Assembly (NCBI GenBank): GCA_030452125.1
Contig: JAKDMV010000006.1
Location: 1 to 51,377, forward strand
Direction: 5' to 3'
Source: Micrococcaceae bacterium
GTDB lineage: Bacteria > Actinomycetota > Actinomycetes > Actinomycetales > Micrococcaceae
Length of the DNA: 51,377 nt
Under the pieces are notes generated by a model. The model saw only the letters and a program-made list of their open reading frames with translations, was not told the origin of the DNA and did no database searches. Below, one piece after another: positions 34,004 through 40,978 of the stretch. Position numbers and translations under genes: made by a program. Position 1 is the stretch's first letter, and every line of letters starts with the position of its first letter.

Positions 34004-34690
34004 CTAGAAGCCCAGCCCCGCCCGGGCGGCAGCAATATCGGCGCCGGCCCAGCGGCTGGCGTATTCCTCGGCGCCCACCAGGCTGCGGGTCATCGCCCGA
34101 TCGATGTAGACCGTTCCGTCCAGATGGTCGGTCTCATGGGCGAGGATCCGTGCCTGCCATCCATGGAATTTGCGCTGGATGGTTTCCCCGGTGGGAGTCG
34201 TATAGGTGGCTGCCAGATCGGCTGGACGCTCGACGACCGCCTGGAAGCCGCTGAAGGACAGGCACCCCTCGTAGAAGGAAGCCGTCCGCGTGCCCACGGC
34301 CTGATAGTGGGGATTAATGATCGCGAAGTACTCAAGCGATTCCCGTTCACGCACCCTGGCGATCTCGGCATCGGTGGCGAAGGTGTCCTCCAACACGGCC
34401 AGTCGCAGGGGAAGTCCGATCTGCGGGGCGGCCAAACCAACCCCGGGGGCGGCATGCATGGTGGCCCGCATGATCTCCAGCAAGGCCTCCAACACTTCCG
34501 GTTCCAGCTGACCGGTGTACTCCTGTGCTTCCATCCGCAGCACGGGATGGCCGAGTTGGACGATGGACGGCAGTGTTTCGGGCAGCAAGGTGCCGTGGTT
34601 TCCCCGGGTGGCGCGTTCGAGCATGGTCCCCACCAGATCCGCCAGCCGGCCGGGGGAGTAGGCGGCAGTTACAGATCGGTCCAGGGTCAT
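34004..34690 (-). CDS. def: Peptide deformylase
   Basis: 228 residues, longer than the core (about 170-190) by an N-terminal extension. The three family motifs are present: GVGLAAPQIG, EGCLS (metal Cys) and HETDHLDG (HEXXH variant with metal His). It removes the formyl group from nascent proteins. Its start overlaps the zapE stop (ATGA). Arthrobacter-type genomes carry another def elsewhere, so redundancy is likely. Confidence 0.93.
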   Translation of the reverse strand: MTLDRSVTAAYSPGRLADLVGTMLERATRGNHGTLLPETLPSIVQLGHPVLRMEAQEYTGQLEPEVLEALLEIMRATMHAAPGVGLAAPQIGLPLRLAVLEDTFATDAEIARVRERESLEYFAIINPHYQAVGTRTASFYEGCLSFSGFQAVVERPADLAATYTTPTGETIQRKFHGWQARILAHETDHLDGTVYIDRAMTRSLVGAEEYASRWAGADIAAARAGLGF

Positions 34691-35835
34691 CGAAGCGGGC
34701 TTTCCTGTTGGGAGGGGGCGGGATCGTGGAGGGAATCTTCATCGGAGGTCCCGGGAACCAGCGGTCGCAACGCCATGAGCCGGCTGCCCAGCCGGGCGGC
34801 ATCGACGGGATGACCTTCCACCGCATCGGGGTCGGGCGGATCCACGCAAATCAGATCGGTGCGCACATCGCGGTCGTACAGGACGTCGATGAGGTTGGCC
34901 AGGCGCTTCCAGGCGCTGGTCGTGGCCCGGTCCGGTGCGGGGATGCCATCGATGATGACATGGTGGAAATTCCGGGCCAGGTGCAGGTAATCGGAGGCTG
35001 CCGAGGGGCGGTCGCACAGGTCGCGGAAATCGAACCAGGCCTGCCCATGGGCGGCACGTTGGGCCGTGAAGCTGTGCGTCGTGGGCTTGAGGTCGGTGAT
35101 TTCGTTGTGGTGGGGGACCGCGAGTCCTGCCTGGGCCAGTTGTTCCGCCGTGCCGGGGACGATGATGTGCCCTGCCGCATAGCCGGAGAGGCGGTCTGCT
35201 TCGGTGATCCGGGCCCGGTAGTCGGTTCCGCCGTCGAGCATGACCACTTTCATACGTGACTTGATCAGTTCGATGGTCGGTTCGAAGAGGTGGTGGAAGT
35301 AGTCATTGGGCAGCAGATCGTCCGGGGCATAGTTCGAGGTCGCGATCAGCAGGATTCCCCGGGCAAAAACTGCCTTGAGTGCGCGGGCAAAGAACATCGC
35401 ATCGCCGGGGTCGTGCACGTGGAGTTCGTCGAAGCACAGCACCCGTACGTCCCCTAGCAACTCGTCCAGTGCCACCTCGACGGCGGTATCACCGGCGGAC
35501 TCAGCCAGTTCGGAACTATGCGCCGAGGCATGGAGATCGCGGAAGAAATCGTGGAAGTGCAGCCGGCGGGTGGCCTCGCTCTGTAGTGCCTCATGCACCA
35601 GCCCCATGAGCCATGACTTGCCGCGCCCGGGAGGGCCGTAGATGTAGAAGTTCTCCACCGACGCCGTTTTGGAGCGTCGTGAAAGCGCCCGGGCAGCGGC
35701 CGTGGAGAGGTCTCTGACCAGGGACTGCTGCTGGGGATCGAGTTCCACACCTGCTGCGTCAACGGAGGCCTGGACCCGGGCGATGATCTTCCGCACTGAA
35801 TTACGCGGGCCGAACGGCAGGGGAGAGGGCCTCAT
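34687..35835 (-). CDS. zapE: AFG1-like ATPase (ZapE)
   Basis: 382 residues. Walker A GPPGRGKSWLMG near residue 72 and Walker B VRVLCFDELHVHD near 133, with the sensor region LLIATSNYAPDDL and the RHxF-type block (HHLFEPTIELIKSRMKV). AFG1 members are AAA+ proteins; in E. coli ZapE destabilises FtsZ rings, in eukaryotes they regulate mitochondrial protein turnover. The role in actinobacteria is not established. It is coupled to def. Confidence 0.88.
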   Translation of the reverse strand: MRPSPLPFGPRNSVRKIIARVQASVDAAGVELDPQQQSLVRDLSTAAARALSRRSKTASVENFYIYGPPGRGKSWLMGLVHEALQSEATRRLHFHDFFRDLHASAHSSELAESAGDTAVEVALDELLGDVRVLCFDELHVHDPGDAMFFARALKAVFARGILLIATSNYAPDDLLPNDYFHHLFEPTIELIKSRMKVVMLDGGTDYRARITEADRLSGYAAGHIIVPGTAEQLAQAGLAVPHHNEITDLKPTTHSFTAQRAAHGQAWFDFRDLCDRPSAASDYLHLARNFHHVIIDGIPAPDRATTSAWKRLANLIDVLYDRDVRTDLICVDPPDPDAVEGHPVDAARLGSRLMALRPLVPGTSDEDSLHDPAPSQQESPLR

Positions 35836-35901: not shown

Positions 35902-36087
35902 TCATACGTCCTGGGCCACGCCGCCTGCGACCCCTTCCGCATTGACACGAGCCTGCTGATCCTTGTCCTGCTGGGCATCGCGGATGCCCCTTCTGACCGC
36001 TGAACGGATAGTGGTGTGAAGGAGATAGAAAAACACCCCGAGGCCGAGCGCGCAAAGGACGATGGAGTTGAGTATCGAGGCATCCAT
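35902..36087 (-). CDS. Small membrane protein
   Basis: 61 residues from ATG 36087. One membrane helix (about 5-25, ILNSIVLCALGLGVFFYLLH) and a charged tail (RRGIRDAQQDKDQQ). No family recognised. It stands in the short gap upstream of zapE, and its start region overlaps the tentative start of the GNAT gene on the other strand, so one of these starts may be wrong. Confidence 0.5.
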   Translation of the reverse strand: MDASILNSIVLCALGLGVFFYLLHTTIRSAVRRGIRDAQQDKDQQARVNAEGVAGGVAQDV

Positions 36088-36628
36088 ATACTGGAGTGTA
36101 CTTCGTGATGACGTCCTATTGGAAACGGTTGGAAGATTGTCAAAACATACGCTCATCAGGGCCGCGACGCTGACTGACTCACCATCGATAGCCGATAAAA
36201 GCCACGACGGTGGCGCGAGCAGCAGTGCCGTGCCTGGCTATGTGGGTGCCATGAAGGACCCGGATCGTCTGGTGTTGGTGGCAGAAGCCGGCGGACAGGT
36301 GGTCGGCTGGGCAAAAACCCATGTCTGGGACCATGCCGACGGCCCTGCGTTGGCCGGACATTATCTAGGTGGCGTCACCGTCGACCCCAGGTGGAGGCGG
36401 CAGGGGATTGCAGCTCGCCTCACGCAAGAGCGGCTGGCCTGGATCTGGACCCGTAACCACGAGGCATGGTGCGTGGTGAACGCTGAAAATATTGCCTCGA
36501 TCGAGCTACACCGCGCGTGGGGATTCGTTCAGGTTGCCGCGGCGGCACGGTTTCACACGACCATATTTGCTGGGGGACGAGGGCTGCTCCTTCGAGCCGA
36601 ACGCCCCATTGAGAGCCCCAATCACTAG
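36062..36628 (+). CDS. GNAT family N-acetyltransferase
   Basis: 188 residues from ATG 36062, but GNAT similarity begins only near residue 31 (LIRAATLTDSPSI), so translation may start later at a TTG such as 36137. Motif A is visible: LGGVTVDPRWRRQGIAARL (acetyl-CoA loop RRQGIA), and motif B is VVNAENIASIELHRAWGF, both typical of the family. Substrate unknown. Codon choice and GC are slightly lower than in the core genes. It marks the left edge of the gene-poor island. Confidence 0.75.
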   Translation: MELSIEASIYWSVLRDDVLLETVGRLSKHTLIRAATLTDSPSIADKSHDGGASSSAVPGYVGAMKDPDRLVLVAEAGGQVVGWAKTHVWDHADGPALAGHYLGGVTVDPRWRRQGIAARLTQERLAWIWTRNHEAWCVVNAENIASIELHRAWGFVQVAAAARFHTTIFAGGRGLLLRAERPIESPNH

Positions 36629-37759
36629 AGTTATGCAGGGGAGAGGTGGTGAGGCCAAGCAGGAATGGTCGTGGGTGTCTCGGAGCTGTGGGCCCACGGA
36701 AGGGCTTGGATTCTCCTCCGGCGTCAACCAGGAAGAACGCATCAGCCGAACGGGATGGGCATGGCGGGGTGCGGGTGGAGTCAATGGCCGTGTCGATATC
36801 TCGGGGCTCCAGATCGACCGGCGGAGTCGGAACGCGAACGATGGCGTGTGAACGCAATCTGTGACGGTGCCGGAGAACACTCCGTGAGTGAGGCCGATGC
36901 ACTTGATCTCTTATCAGACCGCGGGCCGGACGCTTTATGGCGGGCGGGATGGCGCTGGCATCAAGAGGCGTCGTCCAGCAGCACATAACCCAGTGGGCAC
37001 GAATGCATTTCGCCGAAGTACCTGATCAGGGCAGTCCGACCTTCACGATTTGATAAAGCGCCGATAATCTACATTATGTCAAGTAATGCTTTGCTCGGGG
37101 TTCTTCCTGTCCTTTGCCTACCCGAGTGAAACAGGCAGTCCTGCTGTCCTGTCTCACTACAGTTAGGGCAACTGTCCGCCTGTCTTGCCCAAGGTGGGCC
37201 TGCAATAGGTTTCGTCGGCCTAGAGTCGAAGCGTGGGACGTGCACTCACGGCGTCCGATGTTCGCACCGAACGAGAACCGATTCCGGGCACCCTGACGTT
37301 CAGGGAACAACACTCCCCTGCGCCCATCAATGGCCACCTCTCTGCATGCTGGTCGACGCCCTGAGAAGACGTCGTTCCCGTTGAACTTGGATGTCGCACC
37401 AAGAACCGTGGAAATCTCTTCGTAGCCATTCCGCGTCAGGTACCTTGCAGCACTTCCCTAGCATTCGCGCGTGCCCGAGCATTTGGCCCGACTACCGCGA
37501 CGGCACGGGTCTCGTGATTTCTGTAGGACTCCGGCGCCATCATGAAATCAGACGACTCGCGGCACAAACCTGCGACGACAGATGTGCACACACAGCTTCG
37601 TCATCCGAGGGTCCAACCCTGCCCATCGGGGCATCGAGATCTGTGCTGAGTTCATTCCTTGTCCGACAGTCGGCTGCATAAGTCACAGCAGGGTCCTGTT
37701 GCCTGCTTGCGGGACACCAACTATTCACGGGTGAAAAGTGGCAGAAGGCCCCTGAACTT

Positions 37760-37972
37760 TTACCTGCGCGCGGCCACGAGGAGAGGCAGTGTGATAGCTG
37801 TTGCGATCATCCCGATGGCTACAGTCCATCCGAATGCTGAGCGAAAGTCTTCGGCAAACAGCCCGACGACCAGACCGAGCGCCAGACTCGCCAGGAACGA
37901 GATCCCTATTAGAGTGAAGGCGCTCGCCACGGGACGGTCTGCGGGGAAGATTCGGGCGAATGAACTAAACAC
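37760..37972 (-). CDS. Possible 70-residue two-helix membrane peptide
   Basis: From GTG 37972: two hydrophobic segments (FTLIGISFLASLALGLVVGL and VAIGMIATAITLPLLVAA) joined by a short acidic loop. The composition is protein-like, unlike the rest of the island, but the start is uncertain (the frame stays open to 38098) and no family is recognised. It could be an intact small gene or the last two helices of a decayed transporter. Confidence 0.3.
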   Translation of the reverse strand: MFSSFARIFPADRPVASAFTLIGISFLASLALGLVVGLFAEDFRSAFGWTVAIGMIATAITLPLLVAARR

Positions 37973-39020
37973 AAGTCGATGGTAATTGCCGTATGACCTA
38001 CTCGTGCTCCCCCGTCGTTGCCCAAAAGGGCTACCCGTGGACTTCAACGTCGCCCGCACAACGATTTCTTCCCCTTTTGTGTGGCGTTCTACGGGCATCC
38101 TGTCATTATTTGGCAGGGATGTGGTCTAGTCGGTCAATTCACGAGGCCACGTCACCCGTAAGCGTTCGAACACTATCCTGTCTTGCTCGGATCCAAACAT
38201 CGTCGCGGGCGACGCAGTCACGTTCCCTATACCTGCGGTGCCCGCTATTCCAGCTCTCAAGGGATCCAACCCCTGGCAAGTCATCGCCGTGTTCCCTGAT
38301 CTCGGAAACGAGCTCCGATGTTGCCGGTTTTGCCCCGTGCAGGACCTTGCCTAGGGGTTCGTCGGCGAGGCGAGAGGAATCACCGAAGTGCTCAACGGTG
38401 GATTCCGGGCAGGTACTTACGGCCGCCGGATGAGCGAGAGCGGATTCGGCCCAGCGGGTTTACACAGCGGTGACGTTAGGGGCATTGGCGCCGAGCGAGT
38501 GTTCCTCCATGCGCTCATTCTCCCGGCACGAGACGCATCTCTCTGGCATTACTCTGTGTTGGTGACTTGTTCGGACCTTCTGATTTCTCGGCTGCAGTCC
38601 TTGCCCTAGCCCTGACGTCAACGGGTATGCATATCCGTGAAAGCGCTCGAGGAGACGACGTGGCGAGATCCCCGTAGGCCGCCCTGACCGAGGATGAACG
38701 TGGGCCGTCCGTGACCTGATCGCATGTTGGATTTGATGGTTTGGTTCGACTGCCGAGAGATACCTGGAGCAAGCCCGTTTGAAGTCAGTTGAGTCACGCG
38801 AATAGTTTCCTGGCTATTCGTGGTCCACCCCAAGTGAGACGGGAAGACTCCACCGCCAGCACCGACTCTGGATGAAGACCGCGTTCCCTACGGGTGTCGG
38901 GCGCCGGCGCGGGGAGATCCATTCGACCTTCCAACTGCCGGTCTCCAGGCTGATTCGTGGTTTTGCCGCAACTCGGATATTCCACACCGAAACCATCAGA
39001 GTGATTGACGGTTGGAGAAA

Positions 39021-39037
39021 CCCGCTTCGGCGGGCTG
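39021..39037 (-). terminator. Possible terminator hairpin in the island
   Basis: CCCGC-TTCG-GCGGG at 39021-39034; on the minus strand the second arm is followed by TTTCT. It has no certain gene to terminate. Confidence 0.35.
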
Positions 39038-39146
39038 CAATGGTATGAAGGTATTCCCACGAACGGTCGTCGCGCCGCGGCCCGGTTGCGCTTCCCCGCG
39101 CCTGGAAGTGTTGGCTGTTCGGTCAATTGAGCAGGTGGAGGCTGAA

Positions 39147-39548
39147 ATGAGCAATGCTGAAGAGCGAGGGTTGGTGGTTCGCCCCAGCCGATTTGGCCAC
39201 GGGGAAACCCTCAGGTTGTTGACCGCTGCGATTGCCCATCACGGGGCCACGTTGTTTGCGGTCATTGATCACGCTGCCAACGCAGCCGAAGTTGATTTGG
39301 AGCTCCCCCCGACCGCCGTGGTGATCTTCGGCAATCCCGCGGTCGGCACACCGCTGATGCGCGGAGAGCCGGACCTGGCCCTGGACCTGCCCAGCCGAGT
39401 ACTCGTCCGGGAGGACGCGACCGGCATGGTGGAGGTTGTCTACCTCGATCCAGCCCGTCTCGCTGAACGGCATGGGTTGGAGAGCAATCAGGTCAAGGGG
39501 CTCGTCGGGCTGACTGCGATCGTCGATGAAGCCCTGGGGTCCCGCTAA
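39147..39548 (+). CDS. DUF302 family protein
   Basis: 133 residues from ATG 39147 (GGTGGAGG 5 nt upstream). The DUF302 core is seen: LVVRPSRFGHGETLRLLTAA, ATLFAVIDHAANA, VVIFGNPAVGTPLM and LPSRVLVREDATG. Members are small cytosolic proteins of unknown function often placed next to redox genes. Here a flavoprotein reductase follows 185 nt later on the same strand. Confidence 0.88.
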   Translation: MSNAEERGLVVRPSRFGHGETLRLLTAAIAHHGATLFAVIDHAANAAEVDLELPPTAVVIFGNPAVGTPLMRGEPDLALDLPSRVLVREDATGMVEVVYLDPARLAERHGLESNQVKGLVGLTAIVDEALGSR

Positions 39549-39733: not shown

Positions 39734-40978
39734 ATGCCTACTGGACAAACTTTCGTCGTTGTCGGTGCCGGGCAAGCCGGCGGGACTGCTATTCAGAAGT
39801 TGCGTGCAGAAGGCTTTGACGGGCGGATCGTGCTCGTCGGCGCCGAATCCCACCTTCCCTATGAGCGGCCACCGCTGTCGAAGTCCTATCTGAAAAATGA
39901 AGGATGGCTCTCGCATAAGTCATTGCTGGGCCAACAGTGGTACGACAAACAAGAGGTCGAGGTCCGTCTCGGGACTCGAGCTGTAGCGCTGCGGAGCGAC
40001 GATCACCAAGTGGTTCTCGACGACGATACGACGCTGGACTACGACAAGATCCTGATCGCAACCGGATCAAGTGCCCGACGATTGAAAGCGCCCGGTGCCG
40101 AACTTGCCGGTGTGCACTACCTGAGAACCCTTGAAGACTCCGAAGCGTTGGGTGCCGCCTTGGACAACGCGCCGAACGTCGTGATCGTCGGTGCGAGCTG
40201 GATCGGACTGGAAACTGCCGATGCCGCTCTGCAGAAGGGATGCCGGGTCACCGTGATCGGTCCGGGCGAAGCCCCGCTCGAGGCATCCATGGGAACGCTC
40301 CTGGGCGGGTATTTTGCTGACGTGCATCGAAGCCATGGCGTCGAATTCGAACTGGGGCGTCGTGTGGTCGGGCTGGAAGGCGCTGAAAGCGTCGAATCCG
40401 TCGTCGTCGACGACGGCACAAAATTTCCTGCCGACGTGGTGATCGTGGGGGTCGGGGCCGTTCCTGAGTCTGGATTTCTCGAGGAGCGGTTGCTTGCCGA
40501 AGACGGCGGCATCCGTGTCGACTCACGGATGCAGGCCGAGGCGCCCGATGTCTTCGCCGCTGGCGACATCGCTAGCGTGGCCAACCCCCTCTATGGCCGG
40601 CAAATGCGGGTCGAGCACTGGAATAATGCACTAATGGAGGGAAAAATTGCCGCACATTCAATGCTCGGACAGTCCTCCGATTTCGACCCGGCACCCTTCT
40701 TCTTCACCGACCAGTACGACCTTGCCTTGGAGTACGCCGGACGAGTGGATGCCAGGAGGGCCGATGATCCGGTGATCCGCGGGGATCTTGCTGCCGATCG
40801 GTTCCACGCTTTCTGGCTTGTTGACGACGTGGTTGTCGCTGGTCTGCATGTCAACGCGTGGGATGAGGGCATCGAACCGGTCCAGGAGTTGATTCGTTCC
40901 CAAGCCCGGGTGGATCCAGCTGAACTAGCCAATCCAGCAGTGCCTCTGACGCAATTGGTGCAGGCGTCCCGACCCTAG
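39734..40978 (+). CDS. Ferredoxin-NAD(P) reductase-like FAD oxidoreductase
   Basis: 414 residues. FAD-binding GAGQAGG near residue 11 and acidic-strand LVGAESHLPYERPPLSK, then a NAD-binding GASWIGLETADAAL near residue 154, the second FAD motif VFAAGDIA near residue 276 with HWNNALMEG, and a C-terminal reductase dimerisation domain. It matches rubredoxin/ferredoxin reductases of P450 and Rieske oxygenase systems (rhodocoxin-reductase-like). Electron partner not in this window. GGAGCAGGAA precedes the ATG. Confidence 0.9.
   Translation: MPTGQTFVVVGAGQAGGTAIQKLRAEGFDGRIVLVGAESHLPYERPPLSKSYLKNEGWLSHKSLLGQQWYDKQEVEVRLGTRAVALRSDDHQVVLDDDTTLDYDKILIATGSSARRLKAPGAELAGVHYLRTLEDSEALGAALDNAPNVVIVGASWIGLETADAALQKGCRVTVIGPGEAPLEASMGTLLGGYFADVHRSHGVEFELGRRVVGLEGAESVESVVVDDGTKFPADVVIVGVGAVPESGFLEERLLAEDGGIRVDSRMQAEAPDVFAAGDIASVANPLYGRQMRVEHWNNALMEGKIAAHSMLGQSSDFDPAPFFFTDQYDLALEYAGRVDARRADDPVIRGDLAADRFHAFWLVDDVVVAGLHVNAWDEGIEPVQELIRSQARVDPAELANPAVPLTQLVQASRP

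Follow-up and report, generated by a model that had tools for sequence, protein, structure and literature searches.

A gene-poor island in a Micrococcaceae genome, formed by the terminus site dif and the relic of a Tn7-like transposon that probably homes to dif

The DNA analysed here, referred to as the window, is a stretch of 51,377 bp from a Micrococcaceae bacterium (contig JAKDMV010000006.1). Its one large gene-poor island very probably consists of dif, the site of the replication terminus, together with the remains of a Tn7-like transposon for which homing to dif is proposed. Other genomes are designated by G numbers.

The gene-poor island and the dif site

According to the original prediction, positions 36629-39146 form a gene-poor island of low GC content. 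This was borne out, as the segment falls within the largest non-coding gap of the window. A purpose-written gene caller based on codon usage made no call in 36004-39215, where it missed a GNAT gene at 36062-36628 that has a Pfam match. The second-largest gap measures 488 bp and contains a tRNA. The G + C content of positions 36629-39111 is 58.8%, compared to 65.7% for the whole window and 63.1% for other intergenic DNA (12 other spans picked from the gene calls, 2,644 bp in total), indicating that the island is low even for non-coding DNA. A six-frame Pfam scan of the island yielded sub-threshold matches only, the best being QueT (E 0.01) over a membrane peptide described below, and comparison of the island with plasmid and phage collections gave no useful match.

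The island contains the following site:

37057-37084, plus strand: dif, the 28-bp XerC/XerD recombination site, AGCGCCGATAA-TCTACA-TTATGTCAAGT; full sequence AGCGCCGATAATCTACATTATGTCAAGT

Judged by its sequence, this segment is the chromosome-dimer-resolution site dif, which is needed for chromosome separation. Its layout of two 11-bp arms and a 6-bp spacer fits the actinobacterial dif sequence, and 24 of 28 positions are identical to the dif of Frankia alni as quoted in PMC3025954. The counterpart of the right arm TTATGTCAAGT in the consensus of PMC10132070 is the XerD arm. An exact match was found once in the window and in none of 100 shuffles. Within the family, the dif core (at most two mismatches) is present in 281 of 295 genomes, mostly once per genome, with a reversed control of 0 in every row. 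The site lies opposite dnaA in all 30 single-contig relatives, 0.43-0.49 chromosome lengths away; these are 30 of 42 genomes, the own genome and 11 multi-contig genomes being excluded, and 13 of the 30 lengths are rounded. The own genome (198 contigs) has a single dif match, whose terminus position is taken from these 30 relatives. It encodes one FtsK-gamma domain and two tyrosine recombinases, one of XerD type over the cut-off and one of XerC type, which scores 318 against a cut-off of 335 with XerC still the best family. From the genes present, recombination at dif by XerC/XerD under FtsK is predicted. The presence of dif accounts for the special character of this spot. Additional dif-like sites, which differ in their spacers, were seen in G078, G144, G121, G175, G150, G062, G135 and G104, mostly on other contigs (on the same contig in G062), and are perhaps Xer sites of plasmids or elements.

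Flanking genes and comparison with the sister species

The island is bordered by these features:

34687-35835, minus strand: zapE (AFG1-like ATPase), NCBIfam ZapE 276.7 bits (cut-off 140); the A. rhombi protein is 88% identical
36062-36628, plus strand: GNAT acetyltransferase, Pfam 3e-13; in the same place in G001 and G002
36629-37056, no strand: non-coding left arm from the GNAT gene to dif, defined by gene calls and A. rhombi alignment
39147-39548, plus strand: DUF302 gene, start chosen by the analyst, Pfam 7e-20; appears truncated in A. rhombi
39734-40978, plus strand: ferredoxin reductase-like flavoprotein, Pfam 1e-59; 85% identical in A. rhombi

The order zapE, GNAT, dif, DUF302 (shortened) and flavoprotein is the same in G001, which was taken as Arthrobacter rhombi, and the neighbouring genes align at 70-82% between it and the window. 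The distance from the GNAT gene to dif in A. rhombi (about 0.43 kb) is close to the length of the left arm, of which the first ~18 bp and the last few bp align. From the end of the GNAT gene to DUF302, no alignment of the window with the A. rhombi locus was found beyond 46 bp at dif, and the interval between dif and DUF302 is about 1.4 kb longer in the window. A whole-genome DNA search revealed matches of 46 and 31 bp to the island in the genus's two other genomes, both at dif. The original prediction had held that the same sequence in many relatives would speak against a decayed insertion; such sharing applies to a few dozen bp around dif, while the rest is absent from the sister species at the locus.

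These comparisons also bear on a large regulatory or structured RNA region, the other reading proposed at the outset, which would suit the low coding content. We regard it as extremely improbable: an Rfam scan of the island returned no family at gathering score, the sister species shows no conservation at the locus beyond the 46 bp at dif, and the blocks that are conserved are a transposon end and protein-coding relics, with no conservation found outside dif and these parts.

The transposon relic in the window

The suggestion that the island is a decayed mobile or acquired segment proved apt for its right-hand two thirds (37145 to ~38846), which very probably represent a decayed Tn7-like transposon beside dif, but it overlooked dif itself, the island's sole strongly conserved piece. 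The following parts were recognised:

37145-37170, plus strand: left end of the transposon, TGTCCTGTCTCACTACAGTTAGGGCA, with terminal TGT and the first repeat of TnsB type, 60 bp past the end of dif
37142-37379, plus strand: block also present next to dif in two other genera, covering the left end and the start of tnsA, from DNA matches
37233-37460, plus strand: tnsA 5' relic, VGRALTASDVRTEREPIPGTLTFREQHSPAPINGHLSACWSTP followed by a stop, with weak similarity past the stop
37760-37972, minus strand: 70-codon ORF for a small membrane protein, GTG start (analyst's choice), possible cargo; relatives in G001, G112 and, weakly, G160
38129-38453, minus strand: ASCH-domain pseudogene, split by an internal deletion into 38453-38262 and 38191-38129
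38817-38846, minus strand: possible decayed transposon right end, 20/30 matches to the right end of G163

The left end lies on the XerD-type side of dif and features one clear repeat and a second, worn one. Positions 37142-37379 are 74% identical to G112 (E 1e-36) and positions 37152-37350 are 78% identical to G114 (E 1.5e-38), in both cases directly beside the dif of that genome. The tnsA relic was matched by tblastn to the TnsA proteins of G125 (E 7e-6) and G140 (E 8e-6). Remnants of tnsB, tnsC and tniQ were sought in the window and none was found, nor was a target duplication at the relic. A left end and a tnsA fragment with neither these genes nor a duplication indicate a heavily deleted copy; the window copy thus reads as a relic of a Tn7-like transposon and not as a working member. 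At the possible right end, the 20/30 matches to G163 were equalled by 0 of 100 shuffles, and the 16/28 matches of the same segment to the right end of G150 by 41 of 100.

Relatives of the membrane peptide were found in 3 of 294 other genomes, two as small ORFs (E 1e-24 and 8e-23) and the third with E 6e-4. The DNA of this block is 77% identical to G001, where it lies about 79 kb from dif, and the peptide is away from dif in both G001 and G112. A codon comparison points to weak constraint at most. The idea that a large transporter ends in this peptide was abandoned, as both close relatives of the peptide are themselves small ORFs (76 and 73 aa); against abandoning it stands the weak match in G160, which falls inside a 455-codon frame. 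The two ASCH pieces match one G116 protein by tblastn (E 3e-20 and 8e-6); this protein is ASCH by Pfam, while the relic itself has no Pfam match. The membrane ORF and the ASCH pieces may be cargo of the transposon, to which they are linked by position only, or could have arrived separately.

At position 37108, 47 bp right of the start of the dif core, the window also contains TGTCCTTTG, which resembles the left end of the G125 element and may be a second, older relic.

Related transposons beside dif in other genomes

Among 42 dif loci, the exact 12-mer TGTCCTGTCTCA was found to the right of dif in those of the window, G002, G112 and G114 and at no other place, and the 12-bp left-end motif also occurs 37-66 bp right of dif in G163, G230, G140 and G150. 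In a scan of 395 genomes with a search pattern that set this range, the motif followed dif at 37-66 bp in 15 genomes from 6 genera, compared to 0 for a reversed control. Tns protein similarity was also present in the neighbouring DNA examined for 12 of the 15; G216, G218 and G050 have the motif without such similarity, the loci of G218 and G050 ending early. When the distance limit was lifted (51 dif loci, 1.016 Mb), 8 of 11 exact motif copies were located 37-66 bp right of dif and the remaining 3 at 5-6 kb right of dif, in two element-bearing loci. These 51 loci are a non-random set, with 9 chosen for their transposase and 2 for an island match; among the 39 other relatives, G002 alone has the motif.

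Behind the 12-bp motif, G112 carries a transposase fragment. A family search with this piece gave 29 TnsB matches in 26 of 295 genomes. For 10 of the matches (G112 included), the distance from dif is 1.2-1.5 kb, to the right and on the same strand. Excluding G112 as the source of the query, 9 of 28 are at dif, for which the chance would be 3e-26 if the matches were independent, which relatives are not. Inspection covered 21 loci, representing part of the 29 matches. Among the 19 other matches, 12 were inspected and had no dif-like site on the stretch viewed (3 of these are in G050, where contigs break), and 7 belong to the part outside the inspected set.

Genes of tnsA, tnsB and tnsC type are carried by 9 of the 10 dif-adjacent loci, based on gene calls and, for G140, on profiles for all three, and a gene was called in the tniQ position at these loci except in G242. 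In G125, tnsB and tnsC appear interrupted. TnsA of G140 matches NCBIfam TnsA_like_Actin (8e-74), with the Pfam TnsA model below its cut-off; the same genome yielded Pfam Mu-transpos_C (4e-10) and TniB (3.5e-18), both over the cut-off, and its TnsB matches solved TnsB chains. For the Pfam TniQ model, G163 exceeds the cut-off, G140, G150 and G230 fall short of it, and G088 has no match. Where uncut by a contig end, the TniQ-type proteins are short (263-299 aa). A structure model of TniQ was poor (mean pLDDT 64.6), with no PDB match at E 0.001, and a profile search of the PDB and a fold search were uninformative. Pfam analysis of the fragments from G112 and G002 by themselves yielded no informative family, so that full-length relatives were needed.

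In total, at least 19 genomes of the family, from 10 genera, have transposon protein-coding DNA at dif, or 22 when those with the motif only are counted. The 19 comprise the 12 genomes with motif and Tns similarity, G125, G242, G266, G088 and G017 (from the TnsB search), G041 and G025. The 12-bp motif was sought in G266, G088 and G017 and was absent, so their left ends were not placed. In another family of the order, TnsA relatives of G519 and G407 are 236-264 bp from a dif-like site; across the order, a nearby dif-like site is missing for 26 of the 30 TnsA loci obtained from 32 matching genomes. Transposons with predicted TnsA-, TnsB-, TnsC- and TniQ-type genes recur next to dif with a single side and orientation, and the left ends that could be placed are 37-66 bp away from it. 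The elements at dif in G242, G266 and G088 precede large genes that by eye resemble defence cargo (TIR-, helicase- and methylase-like).

An ordinary decay of the terminus, in which a tolerant, gene-poor zone around dif collects random scraps and transposon pieces are incidental, is an alternative. It is in line with 27 of 36 loci having a lower G + C content near dif than at greater distance, with the 12 of 36 loci in which the dif gap is the largest gap, and with A. rhombi likewise having unalignable DNA at dif. The decay reading does not fit the recurrence of the left-end motif in 15 of 395 genomes, where side, orientation and approximate distance relative to dif are alike, nor elements with core genes at the same spot in 9 loci, and we consider it unlikely. 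The median gap at dif is 489 bp across 36 complete neighbourhoods (from 39 relatives; 3 loci cut by contig ends were omitted), making the window island an outlier. Based on this median, and on the gap being the largest in just those 12 loci, the notion that all dif regions are gene-poor islands was rejected.

Transposon ends and target duplications

The elements of this family show TGT...ACA ends, and several have left-end arrays of repeats such as TGTCTCACTACACCCGAAGCA, which are in tandem in G140. Exact 5-bp duplications flank the elements of G150 (ACGGC) and G242 (ATCAG), giving a clear duplication in 2 of 6 elements examined. A 5-bp duplication was sought and not found in G163, G125 and G230, and a fitting one in G140 was left out of the count, as a second element's left end overlaps with it.

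The element adjoins dif, which is a known integration site, and could in principle have been integrated by Xer recombination with dif as its attachment site, as an IMEX-like element in the manner of CTX phage. Xer integration would leave two dif-type sites. In the window, however, a single dif was found at up to 3 mismatches where two flanking sites would be expected, and related elements encode DDE transposases and have 5-bp duplications in the two clear cases, which leaves Xer integration with hardly any plausibility compared to transposition by a Tn7-like element.

Second transposon ends were observed behind the first element in G140 (dif+5155) and G150 (dif+5872), and in G023 a tniQ piece directly follows the left end. 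These arrangements may represent tandem, serial or rearranged insertions at dif. Contig C58 of G050 (4,952 bp) starts and stops at transposon ends, as if the assembly had broken at a multi-copy element.

Phylogeny of TnsB

In a TnsB tree of 20 rows, a branch with 100/100 support separates the 9 dif-adjacent rows, G050b and two plasmid copies from the 8 rows of other locations; the tree is unrooted. The dif label needs 3 changes on this tree, and 4 of 500 shuffles do as well. For three plasmid-borne relatives, no dif-like site was found within the stretches examined.

Comparison with known systems

The dif elements share with Tn7-like transposons the core genes, the repeat arrays at the ends and insertion at a fixed distance from the target (PMC8649781; NCBIfam NF033179), and their distance of 37-66 bp is comparable with the ~50 bp described for CRISPR-associated Tn7-like elements (PMC8649781). 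An Actinobacteria-dominated clade of Tn7-like elements is described as having no experimentally characterised member in the same source, whose main text does not contain the word "dif" (PMC8649781). A search of the open-licence PMC literature yielded the dif hunters of the IS1202 family and no Tn7-like element at dif.

Members of the IS1202 family (ISAjo2 and relatives) are known as "dif site hunters" in Acinetobacter (PMC10132070). They are similar to the present elements in their DDE transposase modelled on TnsB, their TGT...ACA ends, their 5-bp duplications and their same orientation beside dif (PMC10132070). However, IS1202 is a 1.5-kb IS with one transposase that inserts 5 bp from the XerC side (PMC10132070), whereas the elements described here belong to Actinomycetota, have TnsA, TnsB, TnsC and TniQ-type genes and are found 37-66 bp from the XerD-type side. 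Membership in IS1202 was rejected on the grounds of several genes, the opposite side and the distance from dif.

Tn5053 elements use TniQ to target the resolution sites of resolvases (PMC11406308), and these "res site hunters" are alike in having one TniQ aimed at resolution sites of a site-specific recombinase (PMC11406308). Their targets differ, being resolvase sites of Tn3-family elements and not chromosomal dif. Tn5053 is also not known to carry tnsA. In Tn6022, a short TniQ works with the tyrosine-recombinase-like TnsF (PMC10293859), which provides a parallel for a short TniQ paired with a target selector of tyrosine-recombinase fold; TnsF is, however, encoded by the element and targets comM (PMC10293859). 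No TnsF-like gene was recognised among the gene calls beside tniQ at the dif loci.

Proposed mechanism and significance

We propose that the element recognises dif, with the short TniQ probably contacting XerC/D on dif, by analogy with the targeting of resolvase sites by Tn5053. Insertion would occur at footprint distance from dif on the XerD side, sparing dif, and later deletion and AT-biased mutation would convert the copy into a gene-poor scar of low GC content. Serial insertions may have accumulated beside dif. The favoured model is that TniQ reads XerC/D on dif; the alternative that TniQ or TnsC reads the dif DNA directly is just as plausible. It is possible, and we advance this tentatively, that a Tn7-like lineage of Actinomycetota uses the host XerCD-dif complex as its target selector, such that the terminus serves as a renewable safe harbour where decayed copies pile up.

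With dif being highly conserved and single-copy in most genomes analysed here, it represents a near-universal landing pad. If homing is true, dif would be a new attachment site for Tn7-like elements, perhaps with a new target choice via a host recombinase and a possible use for site-specific insertion in Actinomycetota. It would also offer a reason why intergenic DNA beside dif is at times long, poorly conserved and filled with scraps.

Elements at other chromosomal sites

Other Tn7-like elements of the same bacterial family were observed upstream of a presumed clpB-like gene, called in G137 and G268 and indicated by DNA resemblance in G043 and G205. They adjoin an inverted repeat, CTTGAGT-N7-ACTCAA, which we take to be HAIR-like, both names having been assigned by eye. 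Further elements (G128, G006 and G191) are situated by clusters of the DnaA-box-like TTATCCACA, near genes that by eye are gyrA/rhomboid-like or crgA/pknB-like. That such sister elements lie next to clusters of DnaA boxes and a HAIR-like operator may point to a broader tendency to read complexes of host DNA and protein.
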